A DNA stretch of 33,123 bases from assembly GCA_030622435.1 (NCBI GenBank), contig JAUXGE010000007.1, positions 1-33,123 on the forward strand, read 5' to 3'. The notes under the pieces were generated by a model. It was not told the DNA's origin. It ran no database searches and saw only the letters and a list, made by a program, of their open reading frames with translations. Origin of the DNA: Planctomycetota bacterium (lineage in GTDB: Bacteria; Planctomycetota; Phycisphaerae; UBA1845). This document shows positions 2,142 to 8,131 of the stretch, in pieces. Position 1 is the stretch's first letter. Each line of letters starts with the position of its first letter. The position numbers and the translations under genes were made by a program.

Positions 2142-2226
2142 TGACGGCGGCGGCCGCAATCGGAACCAGTCGAACGGCCCAGCGAATCAGCCGATCCTCC
2201 GCTGCTGACAAGGGATAGACAACCAC
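2098..2226 (-). CDS. Possible 42-residue single-helix membrane protein
   Basis: A GTG at 2226 is preceded by AGGAG with an 8-base gap. It opens a 42-codon frame ending in TGA at 2098. The protein has a short charged N-terminus (around AEDRLIRW) and one hydrophobic stretch (VPIAAAAVIMLLGAISLA) long enough to span a membrane. The last 44 bases are antisense to the 3' end of the kinase gene, so the two genes converge and overlap. No family is recognised. Support is only the ribosome site and the helix, so it may be a chance frame. Confidence 0.33.
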   Translation of the reverse strand: MVVYPLSAAEDRLIRWAVRLVPIAAAAVIMLLGAISLASTQV

Positions 2227-2909
2227 GGTCGGCTCTCCTAGCCTTCGATCCCTATGACAATCAGCGGTACGAGTCCTTCCAGCCAATCCAGAAACATCAA
2301 AAATGTATCCATAGCACCTTACCTCCAAAGCGAGTCGTCGGGCGACTTTATCGTCTCGCGGCGATGCTCCGCGAATCCCTCGAGCTCTCGCCGCGCAGGA
2401 GTCGGCACTTGGTGTATCTATGCATCGTCCTTGCAGGAAGTGTCTGCCAGTTATCCGAGTGTTTTCTGCAGAAATGTAGCCTTCGCGCGCGTTTTCACCC
2501 GGGGAATCCCGCAGTTTAGCAAGCGTTGCTGCGCCATTTGGTGCAGAACTACAGCGCAACCGAACGTTGTTCGGATCTTTTCCCCCGAGTTACATCACGG
2601 TTTTCCCCGAGCCGCATAACGAACCTCGTGAACAACCTCGAGTGTTGAGGCGGACGAGTCCAACTTCGGTACGTTTTACGCCTTCTACTTCCGGTTTAGT
2701 GTTTCACAGGTTCAATGATTGCCCGAGCCGCGGGCTTGACGCCCGCGCGGACGTCCTTGCGTGCCCGAGAACGCGGTTCCGCTCGCGTTGATTGTCATAC
2801 CTCGCGTGGAATGTCGCGCTTTTTCGTGGTGCGGGATACAAAACGAAGTGTGGAGCATTCATGGTGGCGGTGCTTGTTACCGTCGCTCGGCAAGCTACTG
2901 CCCGACGTG
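2227..2909. other. Gene-poor stretch with one short GC hairpin
   Basis: No frame here looks like a protein; the open frames are short, on both strands and low in recognisable composition. The one clear structure is a hairpin at 2729-2747: a 7-bp stem CGCGGGC/GCCCGCG around the loop TTGAC, with no T-run. The same core (GCGGGC, five bases, GCCCGC) recurs at 22855-22871, where it works as part of a terminator. Confidence 0.5.
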
Positions 2910-2972
2910 CCGGCAACCGACACTCCGTTCCCGTTTATCGATGTCCCTGGGTTAGTCAGGCATAACTCGATG
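2910..2972 (+). repeat. 63-bp direct repeat, left copy
   Basis: This segment begins CCGGCAACCGA and ends TAACTCGATG. It recurs in the same orientation at 3726-3788 with 60 of 63 positions identical. The left copy ends where the left hairpin of the RAYT element starts. It is much longer than a normal target-site duplication. Confidence 0.85.
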
Positions 2973-3043
2973 GTGCCCCATCCTTCCGCCCGTGCACATT
3001 TGTGACACCATCCGACATTCGAGGCGGAAGGGTGGGGGACGGA
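2972..3043 (+). repeat. Left REP-like hairpin of the RAYT element
   Basis: The arms at 2976-2990 and 3023-3037 pair over 15 positions with one G-T wobble, around a 32-base loop. The outer part GGTGCCCCATCC (2972-2983) recurs inverted at 3712-3723. The inner part GGGTGGGGGACGGA (3030-3043) recurs inverted and perfectly at 3648-3661. The left and right hairpins are therefore mirror-image relatives, as expected for paired REP sequences around a RAYT gene. Confidence 0.75.
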
Positions 3044-3067
3044 CACGATGTCTGATAGACTGGAGGA

Positions 3068-3643
3068 ATGCCGAGTAAGCTACGTCGATACGATGAGTAC
3101 GGTCACGTTCATTTCTTGACGATCTCCTGCTATCGCCGGTTGCAGTTCTTCCGCCACGACCCTGTCAAGCGGGTGTTCGTGGAGGGGATGGGCCGTACAC
3201 GGGCCAAGTTGGGCATTCGTTGGGTGGGGTGTGTGGTGATGCCGGAGCACGTGCATCTGCTGTTGTTCCCCATGCCCATCGGTGCGGACGAACCCGTTGG
3301 CGTGTCCGCTGTGCTGCATGAACTGAAGCAATACGTTGGACGACACGGGAAAGAAGCACTCCGCTCAATCTGGCGCGAGGTGCAGAGCCTGGGAAGCCCT
3401 CCGATGGACGGCTGGGCCTTGGGGCCCGGGGCGAAGCCGCTCTGGAAGACACGCGCTTACGACTTCAATGTGACCACCGAGAAAACGCTTCACGCCAAGC
3501 TGGACTACATACACAAGAATCCGATCTCGCGAGGGCTTGTGGAACAAGCTGATCAATGGGTTTGGAGCAGCTATCGGTACTACGAATACGACGATGATTC
3601 TGTGATCGTTATGGACTGGGATGGGTCGTGGCCAATAGTGTGA
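3068..3643 (+). CDS. REP-associated tyrosine transposase (RAYT, Y1_Tnp family)
   Basis: The 191-residue protein begins with the typical RAYT opening (HVHFLTISCYRR at 13-24). It has the metal-binding HUH motif as HVHLLL at 61-66 and the region holding the catalytic tyrosine as LDYIHKNP at 145-152, with Tyr147 as the likely nucleophile. WKTRAYDF at 126-133 is also typical. These proteins cut single-stranded REP hairpins and join through a 5'-phosphotyrosine. All motifs are present, so the enzyme may be active. GGAGG sits only one base before the ATG, closer than usual, so translation could be weak. It is flanked by the mirrored hairpins described separately. Confidence 0.9.
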   Translation: MPSKLRRYDEYGHVHFLTISCYRRLQFFRHDPVKRVFVEGMGRTRAKLGIRWVGCVVMPEHVHLLLFPMPIGADEPVGVSAVLHELKQYVGRHGKEALRSIWREVQSLGSPPMDGWALGPGAKPLWKTRAYDFNVTTEKTLHAKLDYIHKNPISRGLVEQADQWVWSSYRYYEYDDDSVIVMDWDGSWPIV

Positions 3644-3647
3644 TCGA

Positions 3648-3723
3648 TCCGTCCCCCACCCAACCCGGCGACGCAACGAGGCGACTGCCCGGGCGATTCA
3701 AGCGCCGGGTTGGATGGGGCACC
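3648..3723 (+). repeat. Right REP-like hairpin of the RAYT element
   Basis: The arms at 3654-3670 and 3703-3719 pair at 16 of 17 positions around a 32-base loop. The left edge TCCGTCCCCCACCC and right edge GGATGGGGCACC are the inverted counterparts of the inner and outer edges of the left hairpin. The stem begins four bases after the transposase stop codon. Confidence 0.75.
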
Positions 3724-3725
3724 GG

Positions 3726-3788
3726 CCGGCAACCGACGCTCCGTTCCCGTTTATCGATGTCCCTGGGTAAGTCAGGCGTAACTCGATG
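3726..3788 (+). repeat. 63-bp direct repeat, right copy
   Basis: It matches 2910-2972 at 60 of 63 positions. The differences are A/G in the CACTCC/CGCTCC segment, T/A in GGGTTAG/GGGTAAG and A/G in GGCATAAC/GGCGTAAC. It starts two bases after the right hairpin and lies upstream of the methyltransferase operon. Confidence 0.85.
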
Positions 3789-3824
3789 ACAGCGAGGCAT
3801 CGGGCCGGACCACGGGAGGAGGTA

Positions 3825-3920: not shown

Positions 3921-5381
3921 ATGAGACCGACTGTCAGGTTCCTGAGCAATCAACTGTTGGAAGATATTGTCGGTGAAGCGCGGAGTCTTCTCGAGAAGCT
4001 CGGAATCGAGATTCACAATCCAGGAATCCTGGACATGCTTGGCGATCACGGAGCCAAGATCGATCGCGATAAGAAGCGGGCCTTTCCAGGTGGTGAGATC
4101 ATCGACAAGGCTCTGGAGGCCGCCCCATCCGGGTTCCGGCTGTATGATGTTGAAGGGGGTGAGACGCATGATCTTTCCGGCCACAACGTGCACTTCACAC
4201 CCGGCTCGGCCGCCATCAACGTCCTCGATTACGAAACCGGTGGCAGCCGCAGGCCCACCACGGAGGATTACGTACGGTACGTGAAGGTGGTGAGCCGCCT
4301 GCCGCATTTGTCGTCGCAGAGCACGGCCCTGGTACCGGCCGACGTGCACCAGAACATCTCCGACAGCTACAGGCTGTTCCTGAGCCTCATGTACTGTTCC
4401 AAGCCTGTCGTGACCGGAGCCTTCACGATCGACGCCTTCAATATCATGAAGGACCTTCAGATTGCGGTGCGAGGAAGCGAGGAAGCGCTAAAGGCCAAGC
4501 CGCTTACCGTTTTCTCCTGCTGTCCGACGGCGCCTCTCAAATGGAGCGATGTGACGTCGCAAAACGTCGTCGATTGCGCCAAGTATTCGATTCCGGTGGA
4601 ATACATCTCGATGCCGCTCTCCGGCTTTGTCGCCCCCATCACGCTCGTCGGGAGTCTTGTGCAGCACACGGCCGAGACATTGAGCGGCATCGTCATCAGC
4701 CAACTGACGAATCCAGGTACACCGGTGTTGTACGGCGGCTCACCAGCTCCCTTTGACGTTCGGTATGAAACGACACCGATGGGTGCCGTGGAGACCATGA
4801 TGATCGACTGTGCTTACAACGAGATCGGCAAGCACCTCGGGCTTCCCACCCAGGCTTATATCGCTCTGAGCGATGCCAAGTTGCTTGATGCACAGGCGGG
4901 CGTCGAGTCCTCGATGGGGGCGACGCTTGCGGCCCTGGCCGGTATCAACAACGTCTCCGGACCAGGCATGCTGGACTTCGAAAGTTGCCTGAGTATCGAG
5001 AAGCTCGTGCTCGACAACGAGATATGCGGCATGGTCCTGCGCATGATCGAGGGGATCGAGCCGAGGGAGGATTTCCCTGCCCAGCCGCGGTTTGAAGAGC
5101 TGCTAGCCGATCACCATCTTCTGATCTCGAAACACACACGCCGATACCTTCGGGATGAGCATTACATTCCAGGTCCTGTGGTCGATCGGGCCAATCACTC
5201 GCGGTGGCTGGAGGAGGGTGGGCGGACCCTGGGCGAGCGGGCGCATGCAGAGGTCGAAAGGCTCCTGGGAGAGCACGAACCCACGGCCCTTCCCGGTGAC
5301 GTACGGAAGGATCTGACAGAGCGAATGTCGGTCGAGGCACGTCGCCACGGAATGACCTCTCTGCCCCATGAGAACCTATGA
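3921..5381 (+). CDS. MttB-family (trimethylamine/betaine-type) methyltransferase, non-pyrrolysine
   Basis: The 486-residue protein matches the MttB family along its length. It has a conserved N-terminus (RPTVRFLSN), a VHFTPGSAAINVLD stretch, SDAKLLDAQAGVE in the C-terminal half and a SIEKLVLDNEICGMV segment. Archaeal MttB carries pyrrolysine at an in-frame UAG. Here the frame runs at full length without one, which is the mark of the wider family that includes glycine betaine, carnitine and proline betaine demethylases. Those enzymes transfer a methyl group to a Co(I) corrinoid protein. The substrate cannot be named from sequence; a quaternary or tertiary amine is most likely. AGGAG lies 7 bases before the ATG. 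The gene overlaps the next by four bases (ATGA), so the two are probably translationally coupled. Confidence 0.9.
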   Translation: MRPTVRFLSNQLLEDIVGEARSLLEKLGIEIHNPGILDMLGDHGAKIDRDKKRAFPGGEIIDKALEAAPSGFRLYDVEGGETHDLSGHNVHFTPGSAAINVLDYETGGSRRPTTEDYVRYVKVVSRLPHLSSQSTALVPADVHQNISDSYRLFLSLMYCSKPVVTGAFTIDAFNIMKDLQIAVRGSEEALKAKPLTVFSCCPTAPLKWSDVTSQNVVDCAKYSIPVEYISMPLSGFVAPITLVGSLVQHTAETLSGIVISQLTNPGTPVLYGGSPAPFDVRYETTPMGAVETMMIDCAYNEIGKHLGLPTQAYIALSDAKLLDAQAGVESSMGATLAALAGINNVSGPGMLDFESCLSIEKLVLDNEICGMVLRMIEGIEPREDFPAQPRFEELLADHHLLISKHTRRYLRDEHYIPGPVVDRANHSRWLEEGGRTLGERAHAEVERLLGEHEPTALPGDVRKDLTERMSVEARRHGMTSLPHENL

Positions 5382-6088
5382 CCGGAATCCTGCAGTTTAT
5401 GCCTGCGGAGGTCTTGCCGTCTCGGGATGCCGTGCTGGAAAACCAGGGCATCGCGCCGGGTACGGTCGTGACGAAGGAAATCGACGCACTTTGCCGAACG
5501 GCAATCGACGTCTTGGAAGCGACGGCTGTCCCGGTGGGAGTTATGGAGGAGATTTCGGAGGACGATTTCCGAGGTATCTACGATGGTGAGGGGAGAAACG
5601 AACCACGGACGCCCGTTGCGGACGTTTACATGCAGGCCGATCATTTGGCCCTCTTCGCTGTCACGCTTGGCAAGCAGCCGGAAGCGGAGATCGCCAAACG
5701 TTTTCAGTCGAACGATTTTGCCCTTGCGAGTATGCTGGACGCGGCCGCCTCGGCGGCGGCGGACCGGCTGGCCGGATTGGCCGAGCATCGCTACGAACGG
5801 AATTTGCGCGAGAGAGGTTGCGTCACGGAAACGACGGGAGTACTCAGGTACAGTCCGGGTTACTGCGGGTGGGACATCAGCGGGCAAAAGAGGCTTTTCG
5901 CCTTCGTACACCCCGACAGAATTGGTCTGATACTGAGGGACAGCTTCCTGATGGAACCGCTGAAATCCGTGTCGGGCCTCATCATTGCAGGGCTCAGGAA
6001 CATTCATGACAGACCGGACACGTATCCGTTCTGCGACCGCTGCGAAACCCACGGCTGTCGGAAGAGGTTTCGTGCATTAACGAAGTAG
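5378..6088 (+). CDS. MetH-type B12 reactivation-domain protein (stand-alone)
   Basis: The 236-residue protein resembles the AdoMet-binding reactivation domain of cobalamin-dependent methionine synthase. The key segment is RYSPGYCGWDISGQ at 157-170, matching the R-x-x-PGY motif that binds AdoMet in MetH. LMEPLKSVSG follows at 191-200. The C-terminus carries a cysteine cluster (Cys219, Cys222, Cys227) that could bind metal. A stand-alone version is known from Thermotoga maritima (TM0269), where it serves a MetH lacking this domain. Here it would reductively remethylate inactive Co(II) on the corrinoid protein encoded next. No separate start region is needed, as the ATG overlaps the upstream stop. 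The cysteine cluster is not part of E. coli MetH and may be a redox or structural addition. Confidence 0.83.
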   Translation: MTGILQFMPAEVLPSRDAVLENQGIAPGTVVTKEIDALCRTAIDVLEATAVPVGVMEEISEDDFRGIYDGEGRNEPRTPVADVYMQADHLALFAVTLGKQPEAEIAKRFQSNDFALASMLDAAASAAADRLAGLAEHRYERNLRERGCVTETTGVLRYSPGYCGWDISGQKRLFAFVHPDRIGLILRDSFLMEPLKSVSGLIIAGLRNIHDRPDTYPFCDRCETHGCRKRFRALTK

Positions 6089-6120
6089 TGACAACGCCAT
6101 GATATACGGAGAGATTCGAA

Positions 6121-6759
6121 ATGGCTGGATTAGCCGAGATTTCGGAAGCGGTGATTCGGGGTGATGACGAGCAGGTGGATCGGCTCACGAAGCAGGCGAT
6201 TGCCGATGAGATCTCGGCAAAGAATATCCTGGACGATGGTCTGATTGCGGGGATGGGGACCGTGGGAGAGCGTTTCAAGGCTCACGAGATCTTCCTCCCC
6301 GACGTACTGATGGCCGCCAAGGCTATGTACGCCGGCATGGACAATCTGAGACCGCTGTTGATCAAGGAGGGTGTTCCCTCGCTCGGGAAGATCGTCATCG
6401 GGACCGTGCAGGGAGATCTGCACGACATCGGGAAGAACCTCGTCGCCATTATGCTCAAGGGTGCCGGTTTTGACGTCATTGATCTGGGTAACGATGTGGC
6501 TCCCGAGTCCTTTGTCGAGACAGCCAAAGAGCATGGCGCGTCGATCATCGGCATGTCCGCTCTTCTGACGACAACCATGCCGGTCATGAAGAGTGTTGTG
6601 GAGTGCGTGGAGAAGGAAGGTCTGGCCGGGAAGGTCAGGACGATCGTAGGCGGTGCTCCTGTGTCGAAGGATTTCGCGGCCCAGATCGGCGCTGATGCGT
6701 ACGGGTTTGACGCTGCCAATGCCGTGGATCGTGTGAAGTGCCTCATCAGTGAGAACTGA
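6121..6759 (+). CDS. Corrinoid (B12-binding) methyl-carrier protein, MttC/MtbC/MtgC-like
   Basis: The 212-residue protein has the two parts typical of methyltransferase corrinoid proteins: a helical cap at about 1-85 and a Rossmann-like B12 domain at about 90-212. The B12 signature DLHDIG lies at 99-104, with His101 as the expected lower cobalt ligand. Further matches are SALLTTTMPVMK and VGGAPVS, followed by a GADAYGFDA end. It would carry the methyl group on cobalt between the methyltransferase (3921-5381) and an acceptor enzyme. It begins 32 bases after the reactivation gene, with GGAGAG upstream of the ATG. It ends two bases before the homocysteine methyltransferase. Confidence 0.94.
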   Translation: MAGLAEISEAVIRGDDEQVDRLTKQAIADEISAKNILDDGLIAGMGTVGERFKAHEIFLPDVLMAAKAMYAGMDNLRPLLIKEGVPSLGKIVIGTVQGDLHDIGKNLVAIMLKGAGFDVIDLGNDVAPESFVETAKEHGASIIGMSALLTTTMPVMKSVVECVEKEGLAGKVRTIVGGAPVSKDFAAQIGADAYGFDAANAVDRVKCLISEN

Positions 6760-6761
6760 AG

Positions 6762-7655
6762 ATGAAGAGGCTGATCGATCGGTTGTCATCCGGAGAGACG
6801 CTCGTTGCCGACGGCGCCATGGGTACCATGTTGTTCGAGAAGGGACTCGATGCGGGGCAATGTCCTGAGACCGTCAACCTCTCGAACCCGCGCGTCCTCG
6901 AGGAGATAGCCGAGGCATATCTGGAGGCCGGCGCGGACATCCTCGAGACGAACACGTTCGGCGGCTCGCCGCTGAAGCTCTCCCTTTACGGCCTTGAAGA
7001 GAAGATGGAGGCTATCAACCGTGACGCCGTGCTCGCGGTTCGCGGGGTAGTCGGCGATCGCGCATACGTGGCCGCATCCTGCGGGCCGTGCGGCAAACTG
7101 CTCAAACCATACGGAGATGCGGACCCCGGAGATGTCTACGCGGGCTTCCGCCGGCAGATCGAATGTCTTGTTGGGGCGGGGGCGGACTGCATTTGCGTCG
7201 AAACCATGACCGACCTTGCCGAAGCGAAGCTTGCCGTTTCAGCCGCCAGGGAAGTGTCACCCGACATACCTATCCTTGCCACGATGACTTTCGACGATAC
7301 TCCCAGAGGGTACTACACCATCATGGGTGTCAGCATCGAGGTTGCCGCGGCCGGGTTGTTTGAGGCCGGCGCCGACGTCATCGGCTCGAACTGCGGCAAC
7401 GGCATCGACAACATGATTGCGGTGGCCGGAGCCTTCCGAAAGTGCATCGACATGCCGCTCATCATCCAGGCGAATGCGGGGCTGCCGGAAACGAGGGACG
7501 GGCGGACGGTCTATACGGAATCGCCGGCGCTGATGGGCGAGAGAGCCCGAGACCTGCTTGATCTCGGAGTGTCGATCATAGGGGGGTGTTGCGGTACGAC
7601 CCCGAGCCATATCGGGGCAATTCGGTCGGCTGTTGACTCCTTGGGAAAACCCTGA
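6762..7655 (+). CDS. Homocysteine S-methyltransferase (MetH N-terminal module type)
   Basis: The 297-residue protein corresponds to the homocysteine-binding module of MetH alone. It has DGAMGTML at 17-24, ETNTFGG at 62-68, and the three zinc ligands Cys211 (SNCGNG) and Cys276/Cys277 (GGCCGTTP). It should activate homocysteine on zinc and accept a methyl group to give methionine. It lacks the folate, cobalamin and reactivation modules of full MetH, but the latter two are encoded as separate proteins just upstream. The start ATG lies two bases after the corrinoid gene stop, so the four genes are probably one transcript. An alternative is a BHMT- or S-methylmethionine-type enzyme of the same family that acts without B12; the operon context argues for a corrinoid donor. 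Confidence 0.92.
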   Translation: MKRLIDRLSSGETLVADGAMGTMLFEKGLDAGQCPETVNLSNPRVLEEIAEAYLEAGADILETNTFGGSPLKLSLYGLEEKMEAINRDAVLAVRGVVGDRAYVAASCGPCGKLLKPYGDADPGDVYAGFRRQIECLVGAGADCICVETMTDLAEAKLAVSAAREVSPDIPILATMTFDDTPRGYYTIMGVSIEVAAAGLFEAGADVIGSNCGNGIDNMIAVAGAFRKCIDMPLIIQANAGLPETRDGRTVYTESPALMGERARDLLDLGVSIIGGCCGTTPSHIGAIRSAVDSLGKP

Positions 7656-7930: not shown

Positions 7931-8131
7931 AGTGTACTCTTGGAGTTTACCGGTCCACCCCAACGCCGGGGGAAAAGGCAACGAGCCCGCGCGGGGTATC
8001 GACCAGCTTGTCTGAGGACTTTACCCCGTGGTGTCCCTGCATCCCCTCGAATCGCGACAGGCAATGGGTGGTGGCCGGTAATCATTTGGCCGGCAGGACG
8101 TTGAAGTCGGAGAAACCTCGACCGATCCGCG

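Follow-up and report, generated by a model that had tools for sequence, protein, structure and literature searches.

A conserved four-gene cassette predicted to pass methyl groups from an MttB-type enzyme to homocysteine through a corrinoid protein

The window, i.e. the whole stretch of 33,123 nucleotides analysed here, is contig C181 of an incomplete Planctomycetota MAG (76% complete, 423 contigs). Four genes on its forward strand are the subject of this work:

mttB (MttB-like), 3921..5381, + strand: 486 aa, non-pyrrolysine MttB-superfamily methyltransferase (PF06253, 253 bits)
act, 5378..6088, + strand: 236 aa, stand-alone MetH-type corrinoid reactivation protein (PF02965 Met_synt_B12, 41 bits, in the C-terminal half)
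corP, 6121..6759, + strand: 212 aa, MtgC/MtbC-type corrinoid protein (PF02607 and PF02310 B12 domains, 83 and 97 bits)
hcy, 6762..7655, + strand: 297 aa, stand-alone zinc homocysteine S-methyltransferase module (PF02574, 225 bits)

The mttB and act reading frames overlap by 4 nucleotides (ATGA), act and corP are separated by 32 nucleotides and corP and hcy by 2 nucleotides. Pfam assignment and the joins between the ORFs confirmed the initial annotation, which had described four genes of these families running in one direction with overlaps or tiny gaps; the four ORFs are real and have the family identities given there. Three of the genes had been equated with modules of MetH, with the folate module missing and mttB alongside, and this also holds, since the operon encodes no PF00809 protein and no protein of PF02007, which we take to be the methyl-corrinoid:folate methyltransferase family.

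The operon is bordered by a RAYT-type transposase gene (3068-3643) on one side and by clpX, encoded on the opposite strand, on the other. The RAYT-like (Y1_Tnp) gene is flanked by repeated DNA (window positions 2142-3790), and copies of a 64-bp repeat lie around it at 2909-2972 and 3725-3788 (95%). The two flanks are found again, at 86% and about 205 bp apart, in contig C367 (L004, 1030-1447), a pair that resembles a shortened copy without the transposase. Rfam searches of the window and 17 loci detected neither a SAM nor a cobalamin riboswitch at gathering score, and control of the cassette by such a riboswitch was therefore rejected. A scan for sigma-70 promoters found nothing.

The MttB-like protein matches PF06253 over its full length and its gene contains no in-frame TAG; the pyrrolysine position is occupied by leucine (Leu316), as it is in 79 of 81 sequences, which places the protein among the non-pyrrolysine MttB proteins. 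It is predicted to be a donor:Co(I)-corrinoid methyltransferase. The closest solved structures are those of MttB (7xcl/7xcm) and MtgB (9yce/2qne), and the MttB proteins encoded on Roseobacter plasmids are only 26-29% identical to it. The sequence was rejected as a guide to the donor because the protein is about equally distant from MttB and MtgB; a search of the openly licensed literature found no published pocket residues for MtgB. Neighbouring genes were rejected as well, since neither transporters nor genes of amine catabolism are conserved near the cassette loci. Judged from what is known of the family, the donor is most likely a quaternary amine, as all characterised non-pyrrolysine MttB proteins have substrates of this kind (PMC12155760 and references therein).

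Inside mttB at six loci (L115, L117, L146, L147, L154 and L174), the Rfam family PYLIS_3 reaches gathering score at about 7943-8045. These mttB genes have no amber codon there, thus the matches most likely reflect mttB sequence similarity. On a haloarchaeal plasmid (NZ_CP100467.1, Halomicrococcus gelatinilyticus), genes for an MttB-family protein and a corrinoid protein lie about 17 kb from each other.

CorP consists of a cap and a B12-binding domain. The nearest NCBIfam models are those of MtgC, with scores below the cut-off, and D99, H101 and G104 of its DxHxxG motif are kept wherever a cassette sequence resolves these positions. For Hcy the best PDB match is T. maritima MetH (1q7m, E 3e-52), with BHMT far weaker. 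Its residues C211, C276 and C277 align with the zinc cysteines of T. maritima MetH, which bears out the statement in the initial annotation that all zinc ligands are present and gives Hcy the zinc cysteines of a classical MetH homocysteine module. Across 51 Hcy sequences these cysteines are kept in every one covering the site, and D17, T65, E147 and N238 are conserved too. The homocysteine modules of MetH proteins reach no more than 33-38% identity with an Hcy of the cassettes. Hcy is predicted to act as a methyl-Co(III):homocysteine transferase.

An AlphaFold model of Act (pLDDT 93.6) matched the activation domains of T. maritima TM0269 and E. coli MetH, the best Foldseek matches being 1j6r (E 1e-12), 1msk and 6bm5. 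The PF02965 match and the fold of this model support the earlier proposal of a MetH-type reactivation protein, and Act probably belongs to the MetH reactivation domains. C163 and a C-terminal CxxCx4C motif (C219, C222, C227) are at least 97% conserved in 64 Act sequences. To our knowledge these additional cysteines do not occur in MetH; they may form a metal site. Nearly all of the 64 sequences retain the PGY of the RxxPGY motif, and only 36 have the arginine (R157 position), presumably the SAM-binding arginine of MetH, making the use of SAM by Act uncertain. RamA-like DUF4445 and DUF1638 families are not conserved among the cassette neighbours.

In relatives from the same order, distant stand-alone Act proteins with a similar PGYC and C-terminal cysteine pattern are found at three loci (L049, L051, L056), clustered with a corrinoid protein and a UroD-superfamily protein. 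These clusters are a different corrinoid system that has the reactivator family in common with the cassette.

A search of 100 relatives for a close Act identified 10 genomes besides that of the window, with identities of 44-58% in the nine that aligned whole. The order mttB-act-corP-hcy is kept in six of these ten (five of them aligned full length), and Hcy proteins of five relatives are 62-70% identical to the window Hcy. The contig ends inside hcy in G009 and G039, the latter having an hcy-like stretch of 269 aa at another contig end that is possibly the missing remainder. G026 is masked within corP, G059 has no hcy beside the other three genes and G092 has mttB-act only.

Scanning GTDB genomes with the MttB alignment yielded 255 encoding places. 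The best 80 of these 255 are 67-79% identical and include Planctomycetota, Zixibacteria, WOR-3 (Caldifarciminota), Stahlbacteria, Gemmatimonadota, Fermentibacteria/Aegiribacteria, Acidobacteriota, Cloacimonadota, Neomarinimicrobiota, Spirochaetota and others. Planctomycetota, most of which carry the label Phycisphaerae or Phycisphaerales, supply the closest MttB relatives. Conservation of the gene order, which had been suggested as a check of the initial annotation, was assessed at the 59 related loci where the sequence extends 3 kb or more beyond mttB. At 43 of them act-corP-hcy follow in full; at the remaining loci mttB is followed by corP-hcy (4), act-corP (4), corP (3), act (2) or none of them (3). 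The same order in at least 43 genomes from bacteria of more than ten phyla shows that the arrangement is not due to chance. Antisense artefacts aside, all-against-all ORF clustering revealed no further family of neighbouring genes that recurs at more than 8 loci. In the MttB tree the phylum label changes 21 times, compared to a minimum of 14 and to 41 in shuffles, and sequences thus group partially by phylum. Variants with mttB-corP-hcy and no act in between were seen at L152, L153, L125 and L149. At other loci (L179, L122, L138, L139, L136, L164) hcy is missing beside other cassette genes, so that Hcy may not always be the acceptor.

The initial annotation had pointed out that no MtgA/MtqA-type folate enzyme is encoded with the operon, and this can now be extended: PF00809 and PF02007 searches of 11 cassette genomes identified no free-standing folate methyltransferase of the MtgA/MtgD type. 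PF02007 is absent from all 11. PF00809 occurs once in the window genome, in an ORF of folP size, and the matches in the ten cassette relatives are folP (in nine of the ten) and MetH ORFs of 1059-1217 aa, together with a 590-aa ORF at a contig end in G009 that also holds a homocysteine module. Since only folP and MetH ORFs were found, a distant folate partner elsewhere in the genome was rejected. Each of the 11 genomes encodes exactly one MttB, and it is located in the cassette. Together this supports a dedicated four-part system in which the only encoded methyl acceptor module is that for homocysteine, as had been claimed, and with no free-standing folate methyltransferase in these 11 genomes homocysteine is the best candidate for the acceptor.

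The idea that the cassette stands in for metH, by contrast, did not hold. Nine of the ten relatives encode a full-length MetH, and in the remaining one a fragment of MetH lies where a contig ends; in the window genome an ORF matching the N-terminal module of MetH is truncated by the end of contig C338. Replacement of metH was therefore rejected for this lineage, where the cassette supplements MetH.

More distant carriers differ in this respect. Fifteen further records of the cassette or the mttB clade were searched, two of which (G100, G101) are records of relatives already counted. Among these, G102, G106, G108, G109 and G111 have only a folP-size PF00809 match; PF01717 (MetE) is absent in G102, G106, G108 and G111 and PF02219 (MetF) in G108, G109 and G111. 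The suggested check for a lack of metH or metE thus turned out positive for some distant genomes, with neither found in G108 and G111, but not for the relatives, which keep MetH or a fragment of it. A long PF02219 ORF is present in G106, and a PF02574-like stretch was detected at that locus too. In G102 (Gemmatimonadota; L219, 793-2715), where neither MetH nor MetE was found, a 641-aa fusion of homocysteine methyltransferase and MTHFR (PF02574 and PF02219) is the only other methionine-related gene detected. G109 (Zixibacteria; L220, 1325-2287) has the cassette and a core MetE-type ORF of 321 aa, with no MetH or MetF found. G110 (WOR-3; L217, 2411-5564) encodes a short MetH of 777 aa that comprises homocysteine, pterin and B12 modules without an activation domain and overlaps a MetF-like gene; this genome also has the cassette genes mttB-act.

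G108 and G111, both WOR-3 MAGs consisting of a single chromosome, contain the complete cassette. Searches of them with PF00809, PF01717 and PF02219 found no MetH, MetE or MetF, although errors in chromosome-level MAGs may hide genes. With no synthase of the MetH or MetE family and no source of methyl-folate found, the cassette may be the only methionine synthase there, which the gene content suggests. A wider reading, which we put forward tentatively and hold to be possible but doubtful, is that in some bacteria such as these two the relay would be the sole methionine synthase, demethylating amines without methyl-folate, and that the same cassette, with its cysteine-rich reactivator and a possible metal cluster, would constitute a widespread folate-free pathway.

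The gene anatomy, the missing folate partner and the conservation as a unit favour a direct route, in which the corrinoid receives the methyl group from the donor and passes it on to homocysteine. We consider it probable that the operon encodes a self-contained, corrinoid-dependent and folate-independent methionine synthase driven by demethylation; the methyl-transfer steps, the donor and the partnership of Act and CorP are what we infer here. MttB would take the methyl group off a small donor, a quaternary amine being the likeliest, and load it onto the Co(I) corrinoid of CorP, which would carry it as methyl-Co(III). The zinc-bound thiolate of homocysteine on Hcy would then take the methyl group, giving methionine and regenerating Co(I). 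CorP that has been oxidised to Co(II) would be rescued by Act in the manner of the MetH reactivation domain. In the lineage of the window this route would run beside classical MetH. The folate-free reading of the initial annotation, from amine methyl to homocysteine, thus stands as far as the dedicated four-part system, the acceptor module for homocysteine only and the missing folate partner are concerned, and falls with regard to the replacement of metH.

The relay to homocysteine might also be the same but start from an S-methyl or sulfonium donor (DMSP, S-methylmethionine or a breakdown product of SAM), so that the operon would serve methionine salvage. An internal donor would fit the finding that amine transport and catabolism genes are not conserved nearby, and corrinoid-based salvage of methionine or methyl-selenide has been proposed for other clusters (PMC10418091). 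We regard this as unlikely, since the conserved gene set contains no methionine-salvage genes and the characterised non-pyrrolysine MttB proteins all act on quaternary amines (PMC12155760).

A catabolic demethylase comparable to MtgBCD, in which MttB and CorP deliver the methyl group to tetrahydrofolate via the folate module of MetH, or via a methyltransferase that escaped recognition, and Hcy has an accessory role, appears quite improbable. We know of no case in which a separate corrinoid protein uses the folate module of MetH. A free-standing folate methyltransferase was found in none of the 11 genomes, hcy lies inside the operon at most loci, and the searches of G108 and G111 detected no MetH and no MetF. 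What speaks for such a function is that an ORF for MetH, or for a fragment of it, with a folate module exists in all ten relatives searched, that a few loci consist of mttB-act-corP without hcy, and that folate is the final acceptor in the MttB systems known so far (PMC7154762, PMC12155760, PMC12478193).

Very improbable is a relay in reverse, in which Act and SAM charge the methyl-corrinoid and MttB methylates another acceptor, while Hcy recycles homocysteine. The methyl flow would then resemble that of the estradiol methyltransferase EmtABCD, where SAM is the stoichiometric donor and an MtmB-type subunit acts together with a corrinoid protein (PMC7448270). Against this reading, the stand-alone Hcy module fits a methyl sink, and the R157 position of Act is conserved in only 36 of 64 sequences.

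In textbook methionine synthesis the methyl group comes from folate, and the known MttB demethylases return it to folate or coenzyme M; the cassette seems to couple the demethylation of amines straight to homocysteine, and does so across many phyla of uncultured sediment bacteria. If this is true, it would represent a folate-independent route to methionine and would provide a function for a clade of MttB proteins and for a family of stand-alone reactivators with a conserved cysteine motif.

A search of the openly licensed literature found no description of an mttB-act-corP-hcy operon. Compared with classical MetH, the cassette has the homocysteine, B12 and reactivation modules in common, but MetH is a single polypeptide with methyl-folate as donor, whereas here the modules are separate proteins, PF00809 is missing and MttB takes the place of the folate module. 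BHMT, also of the PF02574 family, would catalyse the same net reaction if the donor were betaine, but is one enzyme without B12, whereas the cassette would be a multi-protein, corrinoid-dependent system. Folate-independent methionine synthases of the MetE type are known, some of them predicted to take the methyl group from corrinoid proteins (PMC7857596). Three of the four MesA-D families are predicted to methylate homocysteine in this way; they have a MetE-type catalytic domain and obtain the methyl group from corrinoid proteins of methanogenesis or the Wood-Ljungdahl pathway, whereas Hcy belongs to PF02574 and would be supplied through MttB (PMC7857596).

MttB-superfamily enzymes work with MtgC-type corrinoid proteins, as proposed here, in MtgB-MtgC-MtgA of Desulfitobacterium hafniense (glycine betaine) and MtpB/MtcB/MtyB-MtqC-MtqA of Eubacterium limosum. 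These systems end on tetrahydrofolate, to which a dedicated enzyme that is absent here passes the methyl group (PMC7154762, PMC12155760), and activation in E. limosum is by the ATP-dependent RamQ rather than by a MetH-type Act (PMC12155760). The greatest likeness is to MtgB, MtgC, MtgD and MtgE of Ruegeria pomeroyi (PMC12478193) and the three-part methionine synthase of Phaeobacter inhibens with its RamA-like and DUF1638 proteins (PMC5764234), both of which have a separate corrinoid protein and a separate PF02574 enzyme, in Ruegeria together with an MttB-family donor enzyme. In MtgBCDE, a single corrinoid protein serves both the synthesis of methionine and the demethylation of the amine, as would be the case in the cassette, but neither function can do without the pterin enzyme MtgD, and the two are linked via folate (PMC12478193); the cassette has no folate module, and the cassette genomes searched encode no separate pterin-binding subunit. 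In addition, reactivation in these two systems relies on RamA-like and DUF1638 proteins and their genes are scattered in the model strains, whereas the cassette has a MetH-type Act and forms one four-gene operon (PMC12478193, PMC5764234). The cassette is thus a variant of the known modular corrinoid methyltransferases and not a new kind, the closest concept being the one already published for Ruegeria pomeroyi, with a folate module and RamA (PMC12478193).
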